Shown: piece after piece, positions 4,031-64,000 of the stretch
How positions within the stretch are numbered: the first letter of the stretch is position 1
Layout: every line of letters starts with the position of its first letter
Source of the DNA: Chitinophaga pinensis
GTDB lineage: Bacteria; Bacteroidota; Bacteroidia; Chitinophagales; Chitinophagaceae
Length of the DNA: 64,000 nucleotides
Assembly: GCA_945862385.1 (NCBI GenBank)
Contig: CAMAXV010000002.1
Span: 62,001 to 126,000 of the forward strand
Direction of reading: 5' to 3'
Program-made: the position numbers and the translations under genes
The notes under the pieces: model-generated
Databases searched by the model: none
What the model saw: the letters and a program-made list of their open reading frames with translations, nothing else
What the model was told of the DNA's origin: nothing

Positions 4031-6772
4031 CTATTCCGGCTCAAATCCAAGCATAAACGTAAACCTGCTTGCATCTCTCAACCTTCCGTTTGGCGTTATC
4101 CTATCAAGCCCGATACCGTAGTCAAATCCAAGCAAACCAAACATCGGCAGGAAAAACCGCACACCCACACCCATGGCCCTGCGCAACCTGAATGGATTCC
4201 ACTCCTTGAAGCTGTACCAACCGTTGGCAGCCTCATAAAAGGCAAGTCCATAGATGGTGCTGCTTGGATTGGTTACAAAAGGATAACGCATCTCCAGAGA
4301 ATACTTGTTGAAAATAGTGAAGAAATTACTGGCATTTTGCCTGTCTGGATTCACTTTAGGATCTGATGTTTCATAAACCGGATAACCTCTGTGTGCAATG
4401 ATATCATAACCAAGTACACCAAAGTTGTTGGTCAGACCGGCATCACCAACCTGAAAACGCTCAAATGGAGAGATAGGAACCTCTTTATTGTAGCGACCAA
4501 TGAAACCATACTTGGCAGCCATACGCATAACAAACTGTCTGCTCTTGTCTTCACCTGCTGGCTTCCCAATGGGCACAAACCATTCTGCATTAAACCTCCA
4601 CTTATGGTATTCAACCAGCTTGAAAATATCTTTATTGTTAATACCCCTGATATATGACCATGGCGGCGTAAATGCTGCACTCAAAAGCATGTTGGAACCA
4701 CTCCTTGGGAAAATAGGTTGATCTATGGATGTTCTTTGTAATGCCAGTTTGAGGTTGATATTATTGGAAACTCCCGTTGAGAAAGAAGGGAAAATGGCAT
4801 AATTCTTTGCATTGTACTGAATATAACTCAATGAGGTTACAAGCGAAAAGAAGTCATCCGGCCATTTCAGCTGTTTACCCAATGCGATCGTTACACCAGA
4901 TGTACTGAGGTAAGAAGAGTCAGAATAAGCCCTGTCAAACAATCCTGTAAACGGATTATATGCATTGGTGAACTTCGTATTGAAGACATTGAAGGTGAAA
5001 GAATTGCGTTTCTTTCCACCAAGCCATGGCTCAGTAAATGAAAAGTTGAGGGAACGGAAAAAACGGCCATTTGACTGAAAACGGAGACTGAGCTTCTGTC
5101 CATCTCCCGTTGGCAAAGGATCCCAGGATGACTTCTTCCAGATATTCCTGATGGAAAAATTATTGAAAGTAACACCTAAAGTTCCGGTAAGTCCGATACC
5201 TCCACCCCAGCCGGCACTTAACTCCAACTGGTCAGATGATTTTTCTTCTACAGAATAGTTGATGTCAACCGTTCCGTCGTCCTGGTTGGGAACTGGATTC
5301 ATTCCCAGTTTCTCCTGATCAAAATAACCCAGGTTGATAATCTCCCTTTGAGAACGAATCAGGTCTGCACGACTGAATTTCTCTCCGGGTATGGTGCGCA
5401 ACTCCCTTCTGATCACATACTCCTTGGTCTTGTCATTCCCGGAAATATTTACATTTTTGATAGAAGCCTGTGGGCCTTCCTGTATCCTGATTTCGTGGTC
5501 AATGGTGTCATTATACACAGATGTTTCAACCGGATTGACACTGAAAAACAGGTAACCATCGTCCATATACAATGAACTGACATCACCTCCCTCGGGAGAT
5601 AACTGTTTTCCGAGTTTCTTATTGAGTACTTCGAGGTTGTACGTTTCTCCTTTGCTAATACCCAAAATCATGTTCAGAATACTGTCGGGATACTTTGTAT
5701 TTCCCTTCCAGGTCATTTTCCCGAAATAATACTTACTTCCCTCGCTAACCTTCATGGAGATGTTCAACCGGCCTTTTGCATCATAGTATTGGGTATCTGA
5801 CTCAATCGCAGCATCCCTATATCCCAGTGAATTGTAATATTCAAGTACCTTTTCTTTGTCTTCCAGATACTTTTTATCGTTGAATTTGGCAGACGAAAAA
5901 AGTTTAAACCTAAACCAGGGATCAAGAAATTCTAAAATTTTGGTTGGCCGGAGGTAATTTTTTTGTGCAATAAACTCCTTCGCTGTTACTGGTGAAACAT
6001 CACCATAAGGACTAACAGAACTATCCGGATAAAGCGTTAGGCGTGTGGTTTCCTTTGTCCCCTTCAGCTTTCTTTTCAACTGTGATGCGGTGGCTGCATT
6101 GTTTCCGAAGAAATAAACATCTGAAATCCTCACCTTATTGCCTTTTGTTACACCAAAAGTGAGTACAACCTTATCAGGTGAAGCAGGATCTGCAGTTTCT
6201 TCGATGGCAACTTCGGCACCCTTGAAACCTTTTTCTGTAAAATACTTGATGATATTCTCCTTGGCAGAGAGCTTCATGTTATCTGTAACTACCCTGGTCT
6301 TGAATAATCCAACCTTATCTTTCAACTCATCCGACTCTGTTTTCCTCACTCCCCTGAACTTGAAATCGGATAACATCGGTCTCTCAATAGCATCAATCTC
6401 TATCCAGATATTTTCTTCCTCAAGCCTGGTTATATAAATATTGATGTTGGTGAACATGTTCTGAGCCCATAGCTTGTTAATGGCTTTGGCAAAATTATCA
6501 CCCCCAGGAATAGTCACTTCATCACCTACAGAAAGTCCTGATACTGAAATCACAATAGCTGCATCAAAAGCTTTATTACCCTTAACCTGAATATCGGCAA
6601 TTGTATACTTTCTTGGATATTTTGAATTGTAAATAGCCATTAATGCCGGATCCACAGAAACCCTGGGAACGGTATCGGACTGAGCAAATCCAGTTTCGGA
6701 AATGGTCAACAATCCCACAAAAAATAACAGCGTACAGATCCTCATCATCGGGTTCTTGGTTAAGGTCGGCAA
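4031..6772 (-). CDS. bamA: Outer membrane protein assembly factor BamA
   Basis: Essential Omp85 insertase that folds beta-barrel proteins into the outer membrane. The 913 residues begin with a signal peptide (about 1-30), then POTRA-like repeats (about 50-480; for example YTIADIQVKGNKAFDA and ASIKNVNISGNDKTKEYVIRR). A 16-strand Omp85 barrel starting near SDQLELSAGWGGGIGL fills the rest. The conserved late-barrel segment FLPMFGLLGFDYGIGLD is present. It is longer than E. coli BamA (810), as usual in Bacteroidota. It sits between uppS and ompH in the conserved envelope cluster. Confidence 0.95.
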   Translation of the reverse strand: MPTLTKNPMMRICTLLFFVGLLTISETGFAQSDTVPRVSVDPALMAIYNSKYPRKYTIADIQVKGNKAFDAAIVISVSGLSVGDEVTIPGGDNFAKAINKLWAQNMFTNINIYITRLEEENIWIEIDAIERPMLSDFKFRGVRKTESDELKDKVGLFKTRVVTDNMKLSAKENIIKYFTEKGFKGAEVAIEETADPASPDKVVLTFGVTKGNKVRISDVYFFGNNAATASQLKRKLKGTKETTRLTLYPDSSVSPYGDVSPVTAKEFIAQKNYLRPTKILEFLDPWFRFKLFSSAKFNDKKYLEDKEKVLEYYNSLGYRDAAIESDTQYYDAKGRLNISMKVSEGSKYYFGKMTWKGNTKYPDSILNMILGISKGETYNLEVLNKKLGKQLSPEGGDVSSLYMDDGYLFFSVNPVETSVYNDTIDHEIRIQEGPQASIKNVNISGNDKTKEYVIRRELRTIPGEKFSRADLIRSQREIINLGYFDQEKLGMNPVPNQDDGTVDINYSVEEKSSDQLELSAGWGGGIGLTGTLGVTFNNFSIRNIWKKSSWDPLPTGDGQKLSLRFQSNGRFFRSLNFSFTEPWLGGKKRNSFTFNVFNTKFTNAYNPFTGLFDRAYSDSSYLSTSGVTIALGKQLKWPDDFFSLVTSLSYIQYNAKNYAIFPSFSTGVSNNINLKLALQRTSIDQPIFPRSGSNMLLSAAFTPPWSYIRGINNKDIFKLVEYHKWRFNAEWFVPIGKPAGEDKSRQFVMRMAAKYGFIGRYNKEVPISPFERFQVGDAGLTNNFGVLGYDIIAHRGYPVYETSDPKVNPDRQNASNFFTIFNKYSLEMRYPFVTNPSSTIYGLAFYEAANGWYSFKEWNPFRLRRAMGVGVRFFLPMFGLLGFDYGIGLDRITPNGRLRDASRFTFMLGFEPE

Positions 6773-31269: not shown

Positions 31270-32340
31270 ATGCAGACTCCAAAAACCATACTGATCATCG
31301 GCTGGGACTCCAATATCTGTCTGGGTGTAGCCTATTGTCTCCATAAAGCAGGATTCAGGGTTTATCTTTTGTCTCATAATCCCAGCAACGCAGGCAGGCA
31401 CTCACGCTTTATAACTAAGTCATTCAGTTACAATCATGAGCATGAACTTGCAGCTGCCGTGCTGGAAATTGTAAAGAAGGAAAAAATAGATTTGGTAATG
31501 CCCTATGATGAAAATGAAACGAGAACCATCAGGCAAAACCAGGATGCTATATTACAATATGCAAGCTGCTCTTGGGCTACATCACCTGATCAGTTTAATC
31601 TGGGAATCAACAAATCAACGCTGGCAGAATTCCTGGAAATCAACCAAATTCCTTGTCCACCAACAGCCTCACCCGAAGATTCAGATAAAATTAACCGCAT
31701 TATCAAAGATTATGGATTTCCGCTATTGGTTAAGAAGATGAGAAGTTCTGCTGGGAGGGGAATTAAAAAAATATTTTCATCGAAAGAATTATCAGCCTTT
31801 TTTATTGAAAACAATCCGAAAGATTACCTCGTACAACCCTTTCTGATTGGCTCTGATGTTACCTGTAATGTGATTTGCAAGGAGGGTGAAATAATTTGCC
31901 ATACCCTACAGGAATCTCCCGTTAAATCAGGTGAGGAATACAATGCAAATGATACACTTGTTTACCATGATGATGAAGAGGTCTTACAGATTGTTGGAAG
32001 GATGATGAAGTCACTTAATTGGCATGGTGTGGCTTGTGTAGATTTAAGAAGGGATGTAAACACAGGCAAGCCTCATATTCTCGAAATCAATGGTCGGTTT
32101 TGGGGATCGGTATTACCTTCATTTTTAAAGGCTGGCATTAACTTTCCTGCCACACTTGCGAGTCTGTCTCTTGGAGAAAAAATTAATATACCGAAACAAA
32201 AATCAGCGAGACAATTTTCATTGAAAGCATACATGAACAGGATTAAAAAAGGGAAATTGACTGCATTCAGTGAAACAAAATATGTACCCTACTTCGAGGA
32301 TCCCATTGCCAGATTCAGACAGGTTTTCATTAAATCCTAA
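31270..32340 (+). CDS. ATP-grasp ligase-like protein
   Basis: A 356-residue carboxylate-amine ligase-type protein. An N-terminal Rossmann-like preATP-grasp domain covers about 1-115 (ILIIGWDSNICLGVAYCLHKAG, quoted partly for position; LVMPYDENETRTI). The ATP-grasp fold covers about 116-320, with phosphate-binding FPLLVKKMRSSAGRGIKKI, the adenine-site DYLVQPFLIGSD and Mg-binding PHILEINGRFWGSV (Glu-x-Asn). It resembles PylC/carbamoyl-phosphate-synthase-like proteins found with polysaccharide or peptide genes; substrates are unknown. Its stop overlaps the convergent exosortase-associated gene by 4 bases. Confidence 0.82.
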   Translation: MQTPKTILIIGWDSNICLGVAYCLHKAGFRVYLLSHNPSNAGRHSRFITKSFSYNHEHELAAAVLEIVKKEKIDLVMPYDENETRTIRQNQDAILQYASCSWATSPDQFNLGINKSTLAEFLEINQIPCPPTASPEDSDKINRIIKDYGFPLLVKKMRSSAGRGIKKIFSSKELSAFFIENNPKDYLVQPFLIGSDVTCNVICKEGEIICHTLQESPVKSGEEYNANDTLVYHDDEEVLQIVGRMMKSLNWHGVACVDLRRDVNTGKPHILEINGRFWGSVLPSFLKAGINFPATLASLSLGEKINIPKQKSARQFSLKAYMNRIKKGKLTAFSETKYVPYFEDPIARFRQVFIKS

Positions 32341-32747
32341 TTACCCAATTGATCCCTGTTCAGTCGCTTATTGATAATACCCATGGCAACATACAGAACA
32401 GGTGAAATCAGGAATTCCTGCATGGTTGCAGCAAGTTCCTTGGTCTTTTTATCAACCATGCCAAAAGCCCAGTCGTAAATACCGATTGCTGTGATCGTGA
32501 TGAGCAGACTGATATGGATAAAATGCCAGAGTTGAGACATCCATTTATCTTCAAGCTTTCCCAAATGATAAGTGCCAACAAAGTAAACGAGGATGGTTAC
32601 GCCGAATTTAATAATATGCCTCAATTTCCTAGGAATATCATAGGTGAAAGAACGGTCTGCAAAAAGCAGGTAAAACAGGGAATAAAGTATGATAATGATT
32701 ACCAGTCCTCCTACCCACTTGTTTCTTTCACTATTGTACAGGTTCAT
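32337..32747 (-). CDS. Exosortase-associated small membrane protein (XrtX-associated type)
   Basis: A 136-residue integral membrane protein with four predicted helices (about 12-29, 44-62, 75-95, 112-130). I know no catalytic motif for it. It overlaps the exosortase gene by 17 bases (32731-32747), so the two are translationally coupled. I start it at MNLYNSERNKW; the open frame extends to 32849 but would then overlap 119 bases of the exosortase gene. The association with exosortase is seen in gene layout and fits the 'XrtX-associated membrane protein' label I recall from public annotation, which should be verified. Confidence 0.65.
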   Translation of the reverse strand: MNLYNSERNKWVGGLVIIIILYSLFYLLFADRSFTYDIPRKLRHIIKFGVTILVYFVGTYHLGKLEDKWMSQLWHFIHISLLITITAIGIYDWAFGMVDKKTKELAATMQEFLISPVLYVAMGIINKRLNRDQLGN

Positions 32748-33345
32748 GGCTTGTTTTGAAAACGGAAAGATTATTGGAAAAACGCACCCAAAGTACAAAT
32801 ATGGTAGAGTAAACCATAATCTTGAAAATATAATGGTGCGCCAGATCAAAATAACGATCCCAATGCATCAGTAAAGCACTAAGGCCCACGCAACGCAAAA
32901 GGTTGACAAGGTGAATAATAAAAACGCCACCTATCAGGTAAATAACTTTTCGCTTAACAGATGCTGGCATGCTGAGAATAAAGCCTATATATAGAATAAA
33001 CAGCTCTAAGCCATTGCAATCATCAGCTATATTGAGGAGATGTTTTCCGTCTTTATCTATTTTACTCACTTTGGCAATCTGGTATTCACCTTCCATTCTG
33101 GTTACAGCAACAACTGGTGTTGCCTTAAATCCTTTTGTTTGATATACCTGGTTAAGTATCCACACAGACTGACTTCCAACGGCATTGGTAAGCGGACCAT
33201 CCAAAGTTCTGGGCTGAGCCCAGAAAAATAAATAAACAAACTTCCATATACCAAAAAGAACAAGCCCCCTCAGTAAGAAAATTCTTACCTGAGGGGGAAA
33301 TTGTTCAAAGGCCTTTTTAGGGGCTTCAAGGGCATTTTTCAGCAT
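32731..33345 (-). CDS. Exosortase family protein (XrtX-like)
   Basis: A 204-residue polytopic inner-membrane transpeptidase candidate. The exosortase/archaeosortase triad can be placed: Cys110 in IADDCNGLELF, Arg151 in HLVNLLRCVGLS, and His170/171 in DLAHHYIFKIM. Several membrane helices (about 23-42, 112-128, 134-158, 172-190) carry them. It is smaller than PEP-CTERM exosortases, like other Bacteroidota single-substrate forms. It should cut and anchor the neighbouring PVDGG C-terminal protein, encoded 5 bases upstream. Codons about 17-27 contain a strong hairpin. Confidence 0.82.
   Translation of the reverse strand: MLKNALEAPKKAFEQFPPQVRIFLLRGLVLFGIWKFVYLFFWAQPRTLDGPLTNAVGSQSVWILNQVYQTKGFKATPVVAVTRMEGEYQIAKVSKIDKDGKHLLNIADDCNGLELFILYIGFILSMPASVKRKVIYLIGGVFIIHLVNLLRCVGLSALLMHWDRYFDLAHHYIFKIMVYSTIFVLWVRFSNNLSVFKTSHEPVQ
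33265..33297 (-). promoter_or_regulatory. Strong hairpin inside the 5' end of the exosortase gene
   Basis: CCCCCTCA (33265-33272) pairs with TGAGGGGG (33290-33297) and the stem continues with GTAAGAA/TTCTTAC around a small bulge and tiny loop. On the minus strand it is followed by CTTGTTCTTTTTGG, so it resembles a partial terminator (attenuator) just after the small substrate gene. Confidence 0.6.
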
Positions 33346-33350
33346 GCTGA

Positions 33351-33674
33351 TTATGCCTTGTTGATTTTGTTTTTGCGATTTTTTTGCAATCTGCGGGCTC
33401 CGTATCCCAGACCTGCTGCAAGGAGAAATCCTAAGCCACCATCTACTGGAATATCACCGGGATCAGGGCCTGCATTGGCAGCGGTGGACATGTCACCGAA
33501 TGCCAGTTCAAGTTTCTGACCGAAAGCTTCTGTTCCTGCGCTGAAATCGAGTTGCGGGAAAGATTGCTCATCAAAATATATTGTCTCTGTATTGTCCTGA
33601 GCGAAGGAAGTAGCTGAAAGCGATACTGCCAAAAGCGTCAGGGTTGCTATTTTACGTGCTGTCTTGATAATCAT
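33351..33674 (-). CDS. PID-CTERM-type protein-sorting substrate
   Basis: A 107-residue secreted protein. It has a signal peptide at 1-25 (SATSFAQ) and a short acidic body (about 27-72). The C-terminal sorting signal has three parts: PVDGG at 76-80, a hydrophobic glycine-rich helix GLGFLLAAGLGYGA (80-93), and a basic tail RRLQKNRKNK. This is the layout of exosortase targets, with PVDGG as the recognition motif in place of PEP. The mature protein would be only about 50 residues, so it may be a small surface or matrix component. It lies 5 bases upstream of the exosortase gene. Confidence 0.82.
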   Translation of the reverse strand: MIIKTARKIATLTLLAVSLSATSFAQDNTETIYFDEQSFPQLDFSAGTEAFGQKLELAFGDMSTAANAGPDPGDIPVDGGLGFLLAAGLGYGARRLQKNRKNKINKA

Positions 33675-56739: not shown

Positions 56740-59700
56740 TCATTTTCGTTTTATAGACAGCACTGACGTATTACCTGAATTACGTACAACCATTATACCA
56801 TCCTCTATTGAAACCAGTTTACGAATCTGACCTTTTAAAGCCACGCCTGGAATAGACATATACTTCATCCTTCCTTCACCATCATTGATAAGAAAACTTC
56901 CGAAATCCGCATCATTCCTGCCAAGTTGGATATTGTTTTCATAATAATTCCCTGCCAGTACAATATCAAGGTCGCCATCCTGATCCACATCATAAGGTAA
57001 TGCACTTTTCAACGGAGACAACTGCTGCTGCCAGGGTAATGGCATGCCTTTAAATCCATCACTTCCCTGATTTACATAAATCATACTCCTAGATTCAGTA
57101 ACCTGCCACTTAACAGATTCACGCAACTTTGATTTTCCAAAAATTTGATATAAGTCTGCCGCGGCGAAATCTGCAGCATACAAAAACTGCTTTTTCAAAG
57201 GTGGCAGTTGCTTTTCCAGATCAGCTTTAACCGCAAAACATATCTCCTTGCCCTCCACGTAATAGGTGATAACCTGTTCGCCCAAACCATTTCCGTCAAA
57301 GTCATTATAGTACATCCTGATGGGTTCTTTTTCATGCGGAGTCAACCTGCCATTGGTTCCACTGTTGCCGGCAATAAGATCTGTATCCCCGTCTCCGTCA
57401 ATGTCAAAAGGCAATACAAAATTCCAAAAGCCCTCAGCGTTGGTTATACTTTTTTCTTCCCCCAAAAAATGATAATCCGTTCCTGCCTCAAGTACTGTTA
57501 TTGCGCCCCATTCTCTGGCCAGTACCAAATCAGTGCGCTTATCGCCATTCAGATCTGTCCAGCGTGCATCAGTTACCATACCTGCCTGCTTCAATGCTGG
57601 TGCCCAGGAGTCTGTTACATCGGTGAATCCTCCTTTGCCATTATTTAACAATAAAAAAGACGCCACGGGTTTTCCATAGGCAAAAGGCATGGCCCTTCCT
57701 CCCAGAAATAGATCTATCAGGCCATCAGAATTGAAATCAAAGGGTCTGACACAGGAAAGTGTTATATCAAAAACAGGAAATGCATTGGCCTGACGCGTGA
57801 AGACACCTCCCTTGTTTAAATATAGCCTGGGTGTGAGGTATGGTGTTTCTCCGTAATATTCATTACCCGCAGACACAACAATAAGATCTTGCGAACAATC
57901 ATTATTGACATCGACAAATGCTGCATCAACATCTTCGTAAGTGGAATCATTGATAAGGTCCTGAGCAATGAGCGGCTGTTCCATGTCTTTGCTGAACCAG
58001 CTAATCTGGCTTCGCTTCCCCTTGGATGAACCCATGAACAAATATGTCACTCCAGCAACCTTTTCGCTGACTGCAAATGCTGGCCCCTCAGTAGAAAGCA
58101 TGTGTGGCATCAAGGGCTCACGGTCAAACTCATTGAATGGATTTTCCTTGTGAGTAATCAAGCCGGCATTCTCCTCCCACAAAATTCCACCATCTGGAAC
58201 ACCAATCCCTTGCTGAAAGCCATATGGAGGTAACCCTTCCCTGTAAACAACTTCAACAGAACCTGTATCAGCTGGATTAAGCTTCTGATAACTCCCTCCC
58301 GGCCATATCAGCAATACTGAATCTACAGGAACTTCTCCCATGCCAATGTGCAATGGTCCTTCCATACTCGATTGAAAACCCCTGATAGGAAACTTTTCAT
58401 AACTCCTGACTTCTCCATGGGTATAAACTAAAACTTTTGCACCAATAGCCTGCAGATTCCCTTTCTGCCCCTGGAGCTTCAGCGTGAGTTGCTTTTCAAG
58501 AGGAAGCTTTTGGTGCACATTTTTGTAAACAAGCGGTGCTTCATCGATATTGTTGACTACAATGTCCAGATCTCCATCATTATCCAGATCGGCATAGATA
58601 GCCCCGTTCGAAAAAGTTGGCTGATCATTCTTAATACTTCCAGAAATGTCCGCAAACCTTGCTTCACCTGTATTTCTAAAAAACTTGTTCTTCAATTTTA
58701 GCTGCGGAAATTTATCTATTACTTTCATTTCTGTTTCAGACATTTCGCCTGTCCTGATCTTTGACTGAATAGCATCATCAGAAATGAAATTGACATAGTC
58801 TATGTCATTCAACCTGCGGGGTATACCATTAGAAATGAAAAGATCCTTATAGCCATCATTGTCAAAGTCAACCCAAAGAGGAGCCCAAGACCAGTCTGTT
58901 GCATGGATTCCTGCGTATATCCCCACCTCGCTGAAATAACCATTACCTCTGTTGAATTGGAGGTTATTACGGGCATACTGGTGATTATACCCATAGCGGA
59001 GTTTCATATTAAAAAGATTGTACTGGTCTTCACCCAAAGACCTTTTCAGAATATAAGGATCTTCAGGCAGCATGTCTACAGATACAATATCAGGCAACGC
59101 ATCATTGTTGATATCAGCCGCATCTACACCCATAGAAAACTGGGATGTATGCATTATGGTGCTGTCAAGTACTTCACTGAATCCACCTCTTTGGTTGTTA
59201 AGGTAGAAATAATCATTCTCATGAAAATCATTTCCAATATACAAATCCGGATACCCGTCTGAGTTCAAATCAGATACTACAATACCTAGACCATAACCTA
59301 TTACGGAGGAATTGATACCCGACACTTTGGTTTCATCTACATAATACCCACCTTCATTTCTGTAAAACCTATCCCCGGATAAGCTGTCATAAGTGTTGAA
59401 ATAAGTCTGCCTGGCATTGAATGTGCTATTATACCTGAGTGAATGATTCAGCAGATACATATCCAGATCTCCATCAAGGTCCTGATCAAAAAAAGCCGCT
59501 TGTGTGCTGAATCCATTGAATGTTAATCCATACGCAGCAGTTGCGTCTTCAAACTCAGGTATTCCTTCACGGCTAATTGATTTACATAACAGGAGCAGGT
59601 TGCCTTTTTGCAGTGTCTCATACCGGCCAACACGACATATATACAAATCAAGCATGCCATCCTGATTGATATCCACAACAGAAACACCAGTTGACCAACC

Positions 59701-60024
59701 ACCATCATCGGGGATACCTGCCTGAATAGTGATGTCTCTAAAATGCATCTGACCATCATTGAGAAACATACTGTTTCTGCCCTGATTGGAACAAAAAAAC
59801 AAATCAACATGACCATCCTTGTTAAAATCGCCTGCAGCCATTCCTGCACCGTTGTAAAAGTACATGTAGTTCAACATGTTAACTTTCCCATTGGGTGTAA
59901 GCCTGTTAGCAAATTCAAGACCCGTCTCGTCTTTACCAAGTACTTCAAACAAAGGCTCCTGCTTGCTGCATGATACAATAGATACAAACAGTGCAATCCA
60001 GCAAAGAATTTTTAGCATTTTCAC
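56740..60024 (-). CDS. VCBS/FG-GAP repeat lipoprotein with ASPIC/UnbV domain (second copy)
   Basis: A 1094-residue lipoprotein with lipobox IVSC (Cys about residue 19). Many FG-GAP/VCBS blades with calcium-binding DxNxDG loops (DFNKDGHVDLFF, DINQDGMLDLYI, DLDNDGDLDIVVNN) form one or two beta-propellers. An ASPIC/UnbV domain lies around 535-605 (AIGAKVLVYTHGEVRSYEKF, GFQSSMEGPLHIGMGE). A further propeller follows. Such proteins often accompany SusCD systems and are thought to bind glycans or proteins at the surface. It overlaps its paralogue by 4 bases. Confidence 0.88.
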   Translation of the reverse strand: MKMLKILCWIALFVSIVSCSKQEPLFEVLGKDETGLEFANRLTPNGKVNMLNYMYFYNGAGMAAGDFNKDGHVDLFFCSNQGRNSMFLNDGQMHFRDITIQAGIPDDGGWSTGVSVVDINQDGMLDLYICRVGRYETLQKGNLLLLCKSISREGIPEFEDATAAYGLTFNGFSTQAAFFDQDLDGDLDMYLLNHSLRYNSTFNARQTYFNTYDSLSGDRFYRNEGGYYVDETKVSGINSSVIGYGLGIVVSDLNSDGYPDLYIGNDFHENDYFYLNNQRGGFSEVLDSTIMHTSQFSMGVDAADINNDALPDIVSVDMLPEDPYILKRSLGEDQYNLFNMKLRYGYNHQYARNNLQFNRGNGYFSEVGIYAGIHATDWSWAPLWVDFDNDGYKDLFISNGIPRRLNDIDYVNFISDDAIQSKIRTGEMSETEMKVIDKFPQLKLKNKFFRNTGEARFADISGSIKNDQPTFSNGAIYADLDNDGDLDIVVNNIDEAPLVYKNVHQKLPLEKQLTLKLQGQKGNLQAIGAKVLVYTHGEVRSYEKFPIRGFQSSMEGPLHIGMGEVPVDSVLLIWPGGSYQKLNPADTGSVEVVYREGLPPYGFQQGIGVPDGGILWEENAGLITHKENPFNEFDREPLMPHMLSTEGPAFAVSEKVAGVTYLFMGSSKGKRSQISWFSKDMEQPLIAQDLINDSTYEDVDAAFVDVNNDCSQDLIVVSAGNEYYGETPYLTPRLYLNKGGVFTRQANAFPVFDITLSCVRPFDFNSDGLIDLFLGGRAMPFAYGKPVASFLLLNNGKGGFTDVTDSWAPALKQAGMVTDARWTDLNGDKRTDLVLAREWGAITVLEAGTDYHFLGEEKSITNAEGFWNFVLPFDIDGDGDTDLIAGNSGTNGRLTPHEKEPIRMYYNDFDGNGLGEQVITYYVEGKEICFAVKADLEKQLPPLKKQFLYAADFAAADLYQIFGKSKLRESVKWQVTESRSMIYVNQGSDGFKGMPLPWQQQLSPLKSALPYDVDQDGDLDIVLAGNYYENNIQLGRNDADFGSFLINDGEGRMKYMSIPGVALKGQIRKLVSIEDGIMVVRNSGNTSVLSIKRK

Positions 60025-63000
60025 TTCCCCTGATTAGTTTGGTACAGAATAGGACTATCATTATTTTGTATGAATAGGTAGTTCAGGGCTCCATTGATGA
60101 AAATGGACTTGATATCCCTTGTTTCACCCACAACTTCAATGCCTGAGGCCGCAGGGGAAAGCGGACTGAATCGTCTCTTACCGTCATTTATCAACAACAA
60201 ACCATAACCTGCATCCATCCGTGAGAACTGAGGAAGCCATTCGTATAAATTGAATCCAAAAATCAAATCCACACGACCATCTCTATTGACATCAGTAGGC
60301 AGGATTGATTTAACAGCGGAGAGCTGAACCTCCATGGGTAAGGGCATAAACTCAAAAGATCCATTACCATTATTCCACGCAATACAGGAACTGCTGTAAT
60401 TATAGGTTTGAACTTCACTATTCTTGATCAATTCACTGCTGAAAAGTTGTTGAACAGATTTTTCTGCATAAGCATCATGCCTAAGATTCTGTTTCTTCAA
60501 GGAAGGAATCTGATCAGTCAAATCTTTTTTGAGGAATACAGGCACATCCTTGCCATTCACGGTGCGGCTGATTATCACTTGCTTAAGCGCCGACTCATCA
60601 AACTGATTAACCCACATTTTAACCGGTTCTGTTTGAGTAGGTCGCAGGTAGTTATTAGCCCCATTATTTCCCAGTACAAGATCCATATCGCCGTCCTGAT
60701 CCAGGTCTGCTGCCGTTACTGAATGCCACCAACCCTTGTAAAGTCCTTCCTGCTTTCCTACAGGTATAAATTTTCCATTGACTAAACTATAAATTGCAGG
60801 CTCCATCCACTCTCCTACCAGAATAAGCTCGGGCATGCCTTTGCCATCGAGTTCGGCAAAAATGGCTGAAGTAATCATACCTGGCCTAACATCTGCCAAG
60901 ATCGACTCATCCAAAACAAACGCTGCATTCCCACTGTTCCTGTAAAATGCAGGTTTAGGCATAGTACCATACTGCACAGGCACAGAGCAAGAAGCAGTAA
61001 AAACATCCAGATCTCCATCCGCATCAATATCAATCCTAAGCATCACATTTGTATTGCCAACAGCTAAGGGAAAAGCACCTTCTTTTTTCTTAAACAACCC
61101 TTTACCATCATTGATATACAACCGATGAGACATGGGTTTGGATAATGTAGGTCTGTTATTACCACCGGAGCCAACCATTAAATCGAGGTCCTTATCACCG
61201 TCTGCGTCAAAGAAAACGGCAGCAACATCTTCAGGCTCTTTTTCCTGGATCCATAATTCTTCATTGGATTTATAAAAACCCTGCCTGGACTGTATATACA
61301 AGCTTGCTGGATGTGATGAAGCACCACCAATAAACACATCATCCAACCCATCACTGTTAACATCGCCAACGGCAGCGCGTGGACCTTCCCGGGATATGAG
61401 TCTGGGAATATTTCTTTCCTGATATATATCCACGTAATTGTCCTCTACATGGGAATTAAATTGGAAATTGTTATTCACAGCTAAATAGGAAGGAGTCGTA
61501 ACTGCTGGAACAAACTTTCTGTCTGAAGAATCCTTGACAAGATGATGAACCGAATCCTGAAGCAGATTTTTCATCGTGCGAAAGGTCCTGTCTGGCCAGT
61601 AAACCCTAACAGAGTCGATGGTTCGGTTTTGACCAAGACCAAAAAGTATTTTATAATCTACGGACGATTGGAATCCGCGTGTTGGAAGCAATTCTCTTGA
61701 GAGTACTTCTTTTCCACTGTAAAGTTCTATACGTGAACCGATAGCCTGCCTGTTGGGTTTATCAGCCTGAAGTGTAAAGCCGATATAATGATTACCTGTA
61801 GTTTCACGGCTGTTATTTCGGTAAATAAAGGCAGGTTGATTGAGGTTATTAACTATCAGATCAAGGTCTCCGTCATTATCAAGATCACCATATGCTGCGC
61901 CATTAGAAAAGGAGTTAGTTGTAACCCCAGAAGAATCTCCTGCATCGGCAAAATTAAATGCCCCTTTGTTGAGGTAAAATTTATTTTTGATTGGGCGGGA
62001 TGGCATTTTCTTGATTACTTCCTCTACCTCTTCCTTTTCACCAGTTACTACCATGCGCTGTACTACTTCGTCAGCAAAAAAATCTATAAAGTCCTGATCT
62101 GTCAGATCATGATAAATACCATTGCATACATAAATATCATTGAATCCATCATTATCTGCATCAAAAAGTAAGGCTCCCCAGCTCCAGTCTGTTGCGGATA
62201 CGCCTGCATAATGTGCAACGTCGCTGAACATTCCCCTGCCATTGTTTTTCTGCAGGGTATTCTGCATATACTGATAATAGAAATCAGACTTGAATTTATA
62301 TTTGAAAACATCGTACCGCTCAAAAGATGTAGTTATTTTCAGCCGTTTATCATCCCCAGGAAGCATCTCTGTAACAAACATGTCATTCCAGCCATCATTG
62401 TTAACATCAGCCATGTCTGCACCCATGGAAGAATGACTGAGATGCCTTACTCTTTTTGTAAGTTCTTCACTGAACTTTCCGTTGCCCTGGTTGATATAGA
62501 GGTAATCCCTTTCAAAGAAATCATTGCTTACATAAATGTCGGGCAGGAGATCTCCGTTTACATCTCCAACAGTTACACCCAAACCAAAACCTATCAGACT
62601 CCCATATATGCCGGCATCTTCGCTGACATCTGTAAAAACACCACCATCGTTGCGCATGAGTTTATCCCCACCTCCCTTCAGATCGTCTGCCACATTCCAG
62701 TCTTTTGCACGCAATTCTCGCTTATTGGAATAATTGAGTGTATTAACCGGGATGAAACTGTTGTTGAGGATATAGCAATCCAGATCACCATCTAGGTCAT
62801 AATCAAAAAAGGCTGCATGCGTAGTGAAGCCGGAATCATTCAAACCATAGCGTGCTGCCTGATCCGTGAAATGCATTTTTCCGTCATTGATCCAGAGTTC
62901 ATTCTCTGTATTCACTCCGGGCTGATATCCTGCGTTGCAAACATAGATGTCCAGGAAACCATCCTGGTTAATATCGACCAAAGCCACACCGGTGCTCCAC

Positions 63001-63326
63001 TTTTTTTTATCCTGAAACCCTGCGGCTTCTGATACATCATCAAATTTCCAGTTGCCTTTATTCAGATAAAGTTTGTTGGCGCCCATGTTGGCTGTAAAGA
63101 ACACATCCGATAATCCGTCATTATTCAGGTCACCAATAGCCACACCTCCACCATTATAGAAATTGCGGTAACTGAATATATTGAATTCACTTGTGTTGAC
63201 TGTCTTGTTCTGAAAGTCTATTCCCGTATTGGTCATTTCCTCCAGCAACACAGGCTTGCTTGTGTTACAGGCTGCGATGCAGCCAATGAGGAAGAATGCA
63301 GCTGAATTTTTCAACAGTTTTGTCAT
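60021..63326 (-). CDS. VCBS/FG-GAP repeat lipoprotein with ASPIC/UnbV domain (first copy)
   Basis: A 1101-residue lipoprotein, paralogue of the following gene and the same in layout: lipobox IAAC (Cys about residue 20), propeller blades with DLNNDGLSDVFF and DYDLDGDLDCYI loops, and an ASPIC/UnbV domain around 520-590 (AIGSRIELYSGKEVLSREL, GFQSSVDYKILFGLGQ). A second set of blades follows (DVNSDGLDDVFIGG, DIDADGDLDVFTA). I start it at the ATG at 63326, which gives a proper signal; a frame opening at 63386 does not. A TATATTTG box 57 bases upstream suggests its own promoter after the SusD terminator. Confidence 0.88.
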   Translation of the reverse strand: MTKLLKNSAAFFLIGCIAACNTSKPVLLEEMTNTGIDFQNKTVNTSEFNIFSYRNFYNGGGVAIGDLNNDGLSDVFFTANMGANKLYLNKGNWKFDDVSEAAGFQDKKKWSTGVALVDINQDGFLDIYVCNAGYQPGVNTENELWINDGKMHFTDQAARYGLNDSGFTTHAAFFDYDLDGDLDCYILNNSFIPVNTLNYSNKRELRAKDWNVADDLKGGGDKLMRNDGGVFTDVSEDAGIYGSLIGFGLGVTVGDVNGDLLPDIYVSNDFFERDYLYINQGNGKFSEELTKRVRHLSHSSMGADMADVNNDGWNDMFVTEMLPGDDKRLKITTSFERYDVFKYKFKSDFYYQYMQNTLQKNNGRGMFSDVAHYAGVSATDWSWGALLFDADNDGFNDIYVCNGIYHDLTDQDFIDFFADEVVQRMVVTGEKEEVEEVIKKMPSRPIKNKFYLNKGAFNFADAGDSSGVTTNSFSNGAAYGDLDNDGDLDLIVNNLNQPAFIYRNNSRETTGNHYIGFTLQADKPNRQAIGSRIELYSGKEVLSRELLPTRGFQSSVDYKILFGLGQNRTIDSVRVYWPDRTFRTMKNLLQDSVHHLVKDSSDRKFVPAVTTPSYLAVNNNFQFNSHVEDNYVDIYQERNIPRLISREGPRAAVGDVNSDGLDDVFIGGASSHPASLYIQSRQGFYKSNEELWIQEKEPEDVAAVFFDADGDKDLDLMVGSGGNNRPTLSKPMSHRLYINDGKGLFKKKEGAFPLAVGNTNVMLRIDIDADGDLDVFTASCSVPVQYGTMPKPAFYRNSGNAAFVLDESILADVRPGMITSAIFAELDGKGMPELILVGEWMEPAIYSLVNGKFIPVGKQEGLYKGWWHSVTAADLDQDGDMDLVLGNNGANNYLRPTQTEPVKMWVNQFDESALKQVIISRTVNGKDVPVFLKKDLTDQIPSLKKQNLRHDAYAEKSVQQLFSSELIKNSEVQTYNYSSSCIAWNNGNGSFEFMPLPMEVQLSAVKSILPTDVNRDGRVDLIFGFNLYEWLPQFSRMDAGYGLLLINDGKRRFSPLSPAASGIEVVGETRDIKSIFINGALNYLFIQNNDSPILYQTNQGK

Positions 63327-63383
63327 GGCAGGTATAATACACTTGAGATGCAGCTTGGTTTTTAATCTGAGCCCAATAATTTG

Positions 63384-63391
63384 CAAATATA
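63384..63391 (-). promoter_or_regulatory. -7 promoter box of the VCBS operon
   Basis: Reads TATATTTG on the minus strand, 57 bases before the ATG at 63326. A GAGGGA/TCCCTC hairpin lies just upstream (63402-63420). Confidence 0.45.
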
Positions 63392-63426
63392 CTGAGAACA
63401 GGAGGGAGTTTCAGTCCCTCATAAAA

Positions 63427-63460
63427 TTAAGAAAGGCCGTTTTGCAACGGCCTTTCTTAA
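63427..63460. terminator. Terminator after susD
   Basis: A perfect 15-base-pair stem (TTAAGAAAGGCCGTT and its complement) with loop TTGC, 18 bases after the SusD stop; the T-rich side faces the minus-strand direction. Confidence 0.8.
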
Positions 63461-63478
63461 TGTCAGTATGAGCGTTTA

Positions 63479-64000
63479 TCAATAACCTGGATTTTGAGTC
63501 AGGTTTGGATTAACAGCCAGCTGCTCACTTGGAATAGCGAAAAGCAGACGCTCATCACCTGATGCAGATTTCTCTGTCCAAGTTCCGAGGAACTTACCGA
63601 AGCGAATCAGGTCATTCCTTCTCCATCCTTCCCAGTACAACTCACGGCTTCTCTCGTCAAGCAGGTTGTCGAGTGTCAGTGAAGCAAATGGAGTGGCACC
63701 GCGGTTGGTACGGATTTGGTTTACAATAACAAGTCCTTCTGCAGCTTTACCAGTTCTAACAAGCGCTTCAGCCTTCATCAGGAGAACGTCAGCCAAACGG
63801 AAGATTACATACTCGTTTTCAGCCTGCTGGCCTTCACGGGGATAATCTGGCGTGTACTTGATTACACGGATACCTGTGATTTCAAGATCATTACCTGTTT
63901 CTTTCAGCTTTACAGCTTTAGTATAGGCAAGGTTATTGTTCTTCCTGTCTTTCAGAGCAGCACCAGTCTGATCAAATTGCTGCCCGATAAGCAACCCTGC
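63479..64000 (-). CDS. SusD/RagB family outer-membrane lipoprotein (5' part outside window)
   Basis: The C-terminal 173 residues of a SusD-like nutrient-binding lipoprotein, the partner of a SusC TonB receptor that should lie further along outside the window. The diagnostic segments are YVIFRLADVLLMKAEALVRTG, VNQIRTNRGATPF, LLDERSRELYWEGWRRNDLIRFGKF (core ERSRELYWEGWRR) and the closing IPSEQLAVNPNLTQNPGY. The frame is open to the window edge, so no start is annotated. The adjoining VCBS lipoproteins may belong to the same uptake locus. Confidence 0.92.
   Translation of the reverse strand, partial: AGLLIGQQFDQTGAALKDRKNNNLAYTKAVKLKETGNDLEITGIRVIKYTPDYPREGQQAENEYVIFRLADVLLMKAEALVRTGKAAEGLVIVNQIRTNRGATPFASLTLDNLLDERSRELYWEGWRRNDLIRFGKFLGTWTEKSASGDERLLFAIPSEQLAVNPNLTQNPGY

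Follow-up and report, generated by a model that had tools for sequence, protein, structure and literature searches.

A four-gene unit of Chitinophaga pinensis hints at joint action of the exosortase and type IX surface-sorting pathways

We analyzed a four-gene unit on the minus strand of a 64,000-nucleotide stretch of Chitinophaga pinensis DNA (assembly GCA_945862385.1, contig CAMAXV010000002.1, positions 62,001 to 126,000), called the window throughout. The unit is composed, in this order, of a cargo gene of the type IX secretion system (T9SS), a gene for a microprotein precursor of the PID-CTERM kind (open reading frame 1, ORF1), an exosortase gene (ORF2), and a gene for a small membrane protein (ORF3) (Table 1). 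An interpretation made from the letters alone (the sequence-only reading) had described the last three genes as a compact system. Their strand, their sizes, and the positions of Cys110, Arg151, and His170/171 in ORF2 were as it had claimed, as were the junctions: ORF1 and ORF2 are separated by 5 bases (33346–33350), and the ATG of ORF3 lies inside ORF2, giving a 17-base overlap. However, the description as a compact three-gene system was incomplete, since the cargo gene, which ends 42 bases 5′ of ORF1 on the same strand, had been missed. The unit as a whole hints that the exosortase and T9SS surface-sorting pathways work together.

Table 1. Features of the unit in the window, and loci of a related microprotein in other genomes
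Feature	Position	Strand	Remarks
T9SS cargo gene, 866 residues	33717..36317	-	TIGR04183 tail; presumed first gene of the unit
PID-CTERM microprotein precursor (ORF1), 107 residues	33351..33674	-	NF046080 match
PVDGG motif, residues 76-80 of ORF1	33435..33449	-	presumed exosortase recognition and cleavage region; inside the NF046080 match
Exosortase (ORF2), 204 residues	32731..33345	-	TIGR04178 match; unnamed clade near XrtX/XrtF
ORF2 triad codons	Cys110 33016-33018; Arg151 32893-32895; His170 32836-32838	-	
Exosortase-associated membrane protein (ORF3), 136 residues, four helices	32337..32747	-	mostly adjoins the exosortase across loci
ribE-side PIDGG microprotein loci	L260, L261, L266-L268, L292-L295, L297; L302-L310, L313, L316, L321		

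A search with hidden Markov models (HMMs), as the sequence-only reading had suggested, placed ORF2 in the exosortase/archaeosortase superfamily (TIGR04178 of NCBIfam, 53.4 bits against a cut-off of 23). Its scores were below the cut-offs of XrtX (NF046081, 110.6 vs. 170 bits), XrtF (TIGR04128, 69.9 vs. 90 bits), and XrtY (NF046083, 56.6 vs. 160 bits), and its clade mates L204, L229, and L214 (our locus handles) were also under the XrtX cut-off, at 120–126 bits. Cys110, Arg151, and His170 were invariant in 17/17 and 35/35 aligned exosortases, the window included, as were W34, Y38, N148, and W186. In a tree of 45 exosortases, ORF2 was located in clade A (23 rows, support 93/91), which contains rows from Chitinophagaceae, Flavobacteriaceae, Mucilaginibacter, and unplaced Bacteroidota. 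Group B adjoins clade A; the same genome's second exosortase and a long branch (L233) are among its nine rows, and its own support was 60/75. A and B together were split from the XrtX and XrtF rows with support of 100/99. The AlphaFold model of ORF2 (predicted local distance difference test, pLDDT, 92.5) has strands at residues 73–84 and 87–98 and a third at 101–106, immediately ahead of the Cys motif. A sequence search of the PDB gave one match at chance level, and a Foldseek search of the PDB with the model gave nothing at E ≤ 0.001. Judged from its sequence, ORF2 is an exosortase of an unnamed clade with an intact triad.

ORF1 exceeded the PID-CTERM cut-off (NF046080, 39 bits vs. 26) with residues 76–99 of 107, and thus carries the tripartite signal attributed to it. 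Read by eye, a hydrophobic N-terminal signal (about residues 1–25) ends in ATSFA, followed by Q; next come a mature part of about 50 residues, the PVDGG motif (residues 76–80), a hydrophobic segment, and a basic tail. The idea of one dedicated substrate was too strong, because the genome (G000) has a pair of exosortase genes and likewise a pair of intact PID-CTERM genes. The second exosortase (G000:C27:4362-5393, L061), the group B member, has an ORF3 paralogue and no adjoining PID gene. It is flanked by a plsX-like gene on one side and by acyltransferase-like and epimerase-like genes on the other, as named by eye. The second intact PID-CTERM gene (G000:C17, L062:5847-6362) stands behind a 75-residue frame that looks like a T9SS cargo without its middle, a signal peptide and start being fused to a sorting tail; this frame may be an internal deletion or an assembly fault. 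A match on C15 was rejected as a gene, being a 28-residue relic without the PIDGG motif. The window unit was the only complete cassette seen in this genome, which also encodes PorU (1144.6 bits, cut-off 420) and 25 T9SS domains.

Gene order was then surveyed in 50 loci, obtained by scanning named Bacteroidota genomes with six close exosortases. The ORF3 family was located directly downstream of the exosortase in 44/50 loci, a PID-CTERM gene was found within 450 bases upstream in 40/50, and both were present in 36/50. The order ORF1-ORF2-ORF3 in these 36 loci, together with PID-CTERM and TIGR04178 scores above the cut-offs, indicates that the three-gene unit is not a chance arrangement. Since the triad is conserved and the three genes co-occur, neither of the two outcomes that the sequence-only reading had regarded as fatal was observed. 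Among the loci lacking ORF3, four (L230, L232, L234, and L235) have a third gene alignable with XrtX partners, and the product of the one that was scanned, L235, scored 30.3 bits with NF046082 (cut-off 75); L237 has a different membrane protein with no family match, and the L238 locus is fragmentary. ORF3 was the most conserved member within the genus (52–81% identity), compared with 42–58% for the exosortase, counting both pieces of the G007 gene, and 47–49% for the microprotein, which was found in three of the relatives. In G007 (L069, G007:C15, 7431–8023), the orthologous exosortase lies in two frames and the partner gene is open; the split may be a frameshift or a sequencing error. Complete cassettes of cargo, PID gene, exosortase, and partner were observed in G001 (cargo cut at the contig end), G026, G008, G117, and G271, covering more than one genus, and also in Hyunsoonleella aquatilis SJ7 (L229).

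This gene order gives good support for ORF3 as a partner of the exosortase, whereas the cofactor activity that the sequence-only reading had assigned to it is putative. ORF3 has the motifs W74-H75-x-x-H78 and E111-x-L-I-S-P116. Invariant columns among 18 aligned relatives include G14, Y22, Y55, G58, L62, W69, and W74, as well as E111, L113, I114, S115, P116, and L118; H75 and H78 were kept in 17/18. NCBIfam and Pfam scans of ORF3 gave no credible family, and a match to WecA (18.7 bits vs. a cut-off of 326) was taken as chance. A distant relation to the XrtX or XrtF partners was rejected, as profile comparison lent it no support. Against NF046082, the window protein showed no match at E ≤ 1, 2/13 aligned relatives matched, and the profiles aligned with a probability of 1.0 (hhalign). 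Against TIGR04127, the window protein was unmatched, the best of the 13 aligned proteins reached E 0.015, and the profile probability was 1.4. The same kind of comparison did relate the TIGR04127-type partners to those of the NF046082 type (93%, E 2.5e-7). By eye, the ORF3, XrtX, and XrtF partners have only a C-terminal (E/R)FLI(S/Q)P look in common. The AlphaFold model of ORF3 had a pLDDT of 86.4; no relative was found among PDB sequences at E ≤ 1, and Foldseek found nothing in the PDB at E ≤ 0.001. Because the profile comparisons revealed no relation to the XrtX or XrtF partners, ORF3 is an undescribed exosortase partner.

Residues 789–865 of the 866-residue cargo gave 24.9 bits with TIGR04183, the model of the type A sorting domain of the T9SS (cut-off 23). 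A local HMM of T9SS tails also matched the cargo (5.3e-21), although this score is not independent because the tail of this cargo was among the seeds of the model. In L065 and L064, PID genes are preceded by relatives of the window cargo. In the order to which C. pinensis belongs, NF046080 matches were found in 72/396 genomes. An exosortase (TIGR04178) was present in 71 of these 72 compared with 159/396 overall (Fisher p 2.5e-32), and the sole PID genome without one, G125, is listed as 78% complete. Neighbours were analyzed for 135 distinct PID genes, taken partly from 80 fetched regions, with the remaining listed matches left out. The precursors were mostly 60–90 residues long (40–185 by our own ORF calls). 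The upstream neighbour was on the same strand in 116 cases and on the opposite strand in 9, and a contig end intervened in 10; in L120, one of the nine, a spurious frame had been picked over a listed T9SS gene. After dropping five same-strand upstream neighbours shorter than 100 residues, 111 were left. TIGR04183 (E ≤ 0.05) was detected in 91/111 upstream neighbours but in only 8/100 downstream neighbours, of which 21/100 belonged to the exosortase family. These results indicated that the T9SS neighbour of ORF1 is not due to chance. The 20 upstream neighbours without TIGR04183 included nine ogt, recognized by their tails, and two sucD. The local HMM, which was built from part of these upstream tails, agreed (90/116 upstream, 7/110 downstream; 70/95 upstream without the seed loci).

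The spacing is short, with a median cargo-PID gap of 35.5 nt over 90 pairs and a gap of at most 120 nt in 81/90. Since 247 T9SS domains were found across six genomes of about 18.6 Mb, approximately 1.3% of genes would be expected to carry one, at an assumed one gene per kb. The genome G403 has 20 PID matches, at least 17 of which, among the matches listed, stand directly behind a T9SS domain; two further genes do so by their tails (L080 and L137), and one match is a 37-residue frame. As many of the surveyed PID genes lie together in one genome or another, the pairing counts are not independent events. The exosortase on contig C1 of G403 has the same partner type as that of the window. Its contig C3 (L300, about 4469–5406) encodes a second, more distant exosortase and a divergent 117-residue frame with a PID-like tail, where our local models found no ORF3-type partner. 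In a Pfam scan of ten cargos, the T9SS tail PF18962 was found in eight, the window and L065 proteins being without it; FlgD_ig was over the cut-off in one and covered the same tail, and no other domain passed. A special domain marking the PID-paired cargo was rejected, as the candidate motifs GWNL-NPY and SGQAFFV occurred in 20/101 and 16/101 upstream proteins, respectively. The precursors themselves differed: a net acidity of at least 2 over the 15 residues preceding the motif was observed in 71/90 T9SS-paired but 11/35 unpaired precursors (Fisher p 1.5e-6), and four-proline runs were present in 7/90 and 13/35, respectively. The T9SS pairing therefore tracks one kind of PID peptide rather than all of them. 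Outside the order, PID genes stand behind genes with T9SS-like tails, as seen by eye, in L315, L317, and L319 of Flavobacteriales.

From this arrangement, we propose that a T9SS cargo is made together with a tiny precursor of an acidic peptide, that the exosortase cleaves this precursor, and that the peptide serves the cargo; we give this proposal a probability of roughly 55%. The microprotein would be exported by Sec and lose its signal peptide, after which the exosortase, with ORF3, would cut it at PVDGG, leaving the C-terminal helix behind in the inner membrane. By transpeptidation, the reaction proposed for exosortases, the short acidic peptide would be passed to an acceptor. Once released and modified at its C-terminus, the peptide would then serve the co-produced cargo, most likely in surface anchoring or assembly, while the cargo itself would exit through the T9SS. 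The upstream cargo thus offers an answer to the purpose of a substrate of only about 50 residues, a question that the sequence-only reading had raised.

Several observations weigh against this proposal. The TIGR04183 score of the window cargo is marginal, and the protein had no Pfam match at E ≤ 0.01. The unit is also patchy: among 36 same-genus relatives, any exosortase match was found in 10 and a close orthologue in 6 (G001, G005, G007, G008, G026, and G028), and in G005, G028, and G007, the exosortase and its partner lack an adjoining PID gene and come after an aminotransferase-like gene. In 12 named genomes with a window-type exosortase, 11 of them Flavobacteriaceae, a T9SS-like gene was directly upstream in only 3 of 30 PID loci, some of which overlap (L247, L255, and L262). 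Further T9SS-like upstream genes were found in L296, L298, and L202. Many of the remaining PID proteins have longer, often Lys/Gly-rich linkers, and their genes adjoin the exosortase. In genus g71 of another family, nine PID genes are downstream of ogt, a methylated-DNA methyltransferase gene, and not of a T9SS gene (L092, L093, L099, L101, L104, L165, L174, L176, and L188), and their linkers are proline-rich or neutral. Moreover, both the processing of PID-CTERM proteins and the contact between peptide and cargo are predicted steps.

Some of these observations would suit an ordinary exosortase/PID-CTERM sorting pair, used for the surface or exopolysaccharide attachment of any PID-CTERM protein, beside a functionally unrelated T9SS neighbour. 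Such a pairing of enzyme and signal follows known logic, the T9SS pairing is missing from most of the loci seen in Flavobacteriaceae whose exosortase belongs to this clade, and the second exosortase of the C. pinensis genome adjoins genes that look by eye like an acyltransferase and an epimerase. However, an unrelated neighbour does not explain why TIGR04183 is so strongly enriched upstream and not downstream of PID genes in many genera, why most gaps are so short, or why at least 17 of 20 matches in G403 are paired, and the ten scanned cargos have no other domain in common. We thus consider this explanation a possible one, although a doubtful one. The microprotein could instead act as a two-helix hairpin in the inner membrane, serving as an escort or a gate for the T9SS cargo during export until the exosortase cut switches it off or releases it. 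Mature parts of often just 10–40 residues or so, as estimated by eye, are short for a folded protein, and the acidity before the motif is a property of the paired precursors; nevertheless, a tripartite tail is the expected cleavage target of an exosortase, and the N-terminus is probably cleaved as well, since by eye the N-termini resemble signal peptides and have an A-Q junction, so that a hairpin is unlikely. A diffusible or surface signal, such as a peptide pheromone whose gene rides along with surface-protein operons, is very improbable: the small size and the near-identical acidic peptide QPGFGDDTDD in many G403 paralogues would agree with it, but we noticed neither a receptor nor a regulator next to these genes, without a systematic search for one, and up to 20 copies per genome behind differing cargos fit a helper better than a signal.

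The remainder of the window contains two regions that we mention for completeness. A plus-strand ATP-grasp gene (31270–32340) meets ORF3 end to end with a 4-base overlap. At 56740–63994, two adjoining large FG-GAP/VCBS-like repeat proteins (1094 and 1121 residues) and a SusD-like gene at the window edge were recognized by eye.

Exosortase/PID-CTERM pairs are already a named kind in NCBIfam. Two things are new, as far as we could find: an unnamed exosortase clade that comes with a distinct partner family, and the fact that PID microproteins are paired with T9SS cargo. Among the open-licence papers listed by our searches, we found none on an exosortase/PID-CTERM-T9SS pairing, none using the term PID-CTERM, and, judged by titles, abstracts, and available passages, none about an inner-membrane peptide-processing branch of the T9SS. 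If the link between exosortase and T9SS is real, T9SS surface display would have such a branch. The gene order points to possible substrates, to a conserved partner in the membrane, and to a specific pairing with cargo, and it bears on the likeness of exosortase mutants to T9SS mutants in Flavobacterium johnsoniae, which is left unexplained in the available portions of PMC10936215.

In those portions of PMC10936215, deletions of F. johnsoniae xrtF (Fjoh_1448) and its partner (Fjoh_1449) are given the same summary phenotypes as deletions of porU and porZ: biofilm was much less, zorbs were abolished, sand colonisation was less, and B. cereus expansion was wild-type. However, the same phenotype row is reported there for Fjoh_0651, a hypothetical gene whose small size follows from a 434-bp clone that also included its presumed promoter, and for the aminotransferase mutant FJ0334, so that the row is shared by genes beyond those for exosortase or T9SS. 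The authors left the exosortase substrates to future research. As far as the source goes, these genetics agree with a link between exosortase and T9SS, and they are the sole experimental hint of it, coming from outside the present lineage.

A candidate for the XrtF substrate emerged from our survey. No PID gene was found beside XrtF in the 10 loci read. A protein of about 60–80 residues, with a proline-rich linker and an (L/F)PIDGG(V/I) tail, was located beside ribE in 10/10 XrtF-positive Flavobacteriaceae genomes (Table 1), and none of the NF046080 matches of two XrtF-negative genomes were of this ribE-side kind. An alignment of nine such proteins matched in 23/196 Flavobacteriales genomes, 20 of which were XrtF-positive, compared with 76/196 overall (Fisher p 6e-7), and 12 of the 20 loci returned adjoin ribE, all 12 in XrtF-positive genomes. 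The three XrtF-negative matches were another kind of PID protein (G466), a reading frame interrupted by stops (G483), and a weak match in a long frame (G542). No match to the ribE-side protein was detectable in 56/76 XrtF genomes. Extending the proposal, we tentatively suggest that Bacteroidota exosortases of the window type and of the XrtF type could form an arm of the T9SS that releases very short, C-terminally modified peptides needed for cargo anchoring. The XrtF substrate in F. johnsoniae would then be a single proline-rich PIDGG microprotein, possibly Fjoh_0651, whose deletion shares the phenotype row described above.

Among the closest known systems is XrtX (NF046081) with PID-CTERM (NF046080) and the XrtX-associated membrane protein (NF046082). 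The window unit resembles it in superfamily, triad, PID-CTERM signal, and the layout of substrate, enzyme, and membrane protein, and the XrtX-associated protein and ORF3 both end, by eye, in a Ser-Pro helix motif. The two differ in that the window enzyme is well under the XrtX cut-off, clades A and B stand apart from the XrtX rows, ORF3 is not detectably NF046082, and the XrtX-like rows L077–L079 are about 15 residues shorter ahead of the Cys motif. XrtF (TIGR04128) and TIGR04127, represented by Fjoh_1448/1449, likewise combine an enzyme with a neighbouring small multi-helix membrane protein, whereas the window enzyme misses the XrtF cut-off and ORF3 is not detectably TIGR04127. The T9SS attachment complex of PorU and PorZ, covered in parts of PMC7468200 and PMC10936215, also cuts a C-terminal signal and anchors surface proteins. 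However, its target is the T9SS tail, it works at the outer membrane, and it is unrelated to exosortases; a mutual link is our inference. The rhombosortase/GlyGly-CTERM system is similar in that the enzyme adjoins its target in most single-target genomes and the C-terminal tag is tripartite, as the available part of PMC3237569 describes, and in Vibrio it has been tied to type II secretion, as cited in the available part of PMC7468200. In contrast to exosortases, rhombosortase is an unrelated rhomboid serine protease; furthermore, its tag is placed on the secreted protein itself, whereas in the window, a separate microprotein bears the tag and a T9SS tail is present on the cargo.

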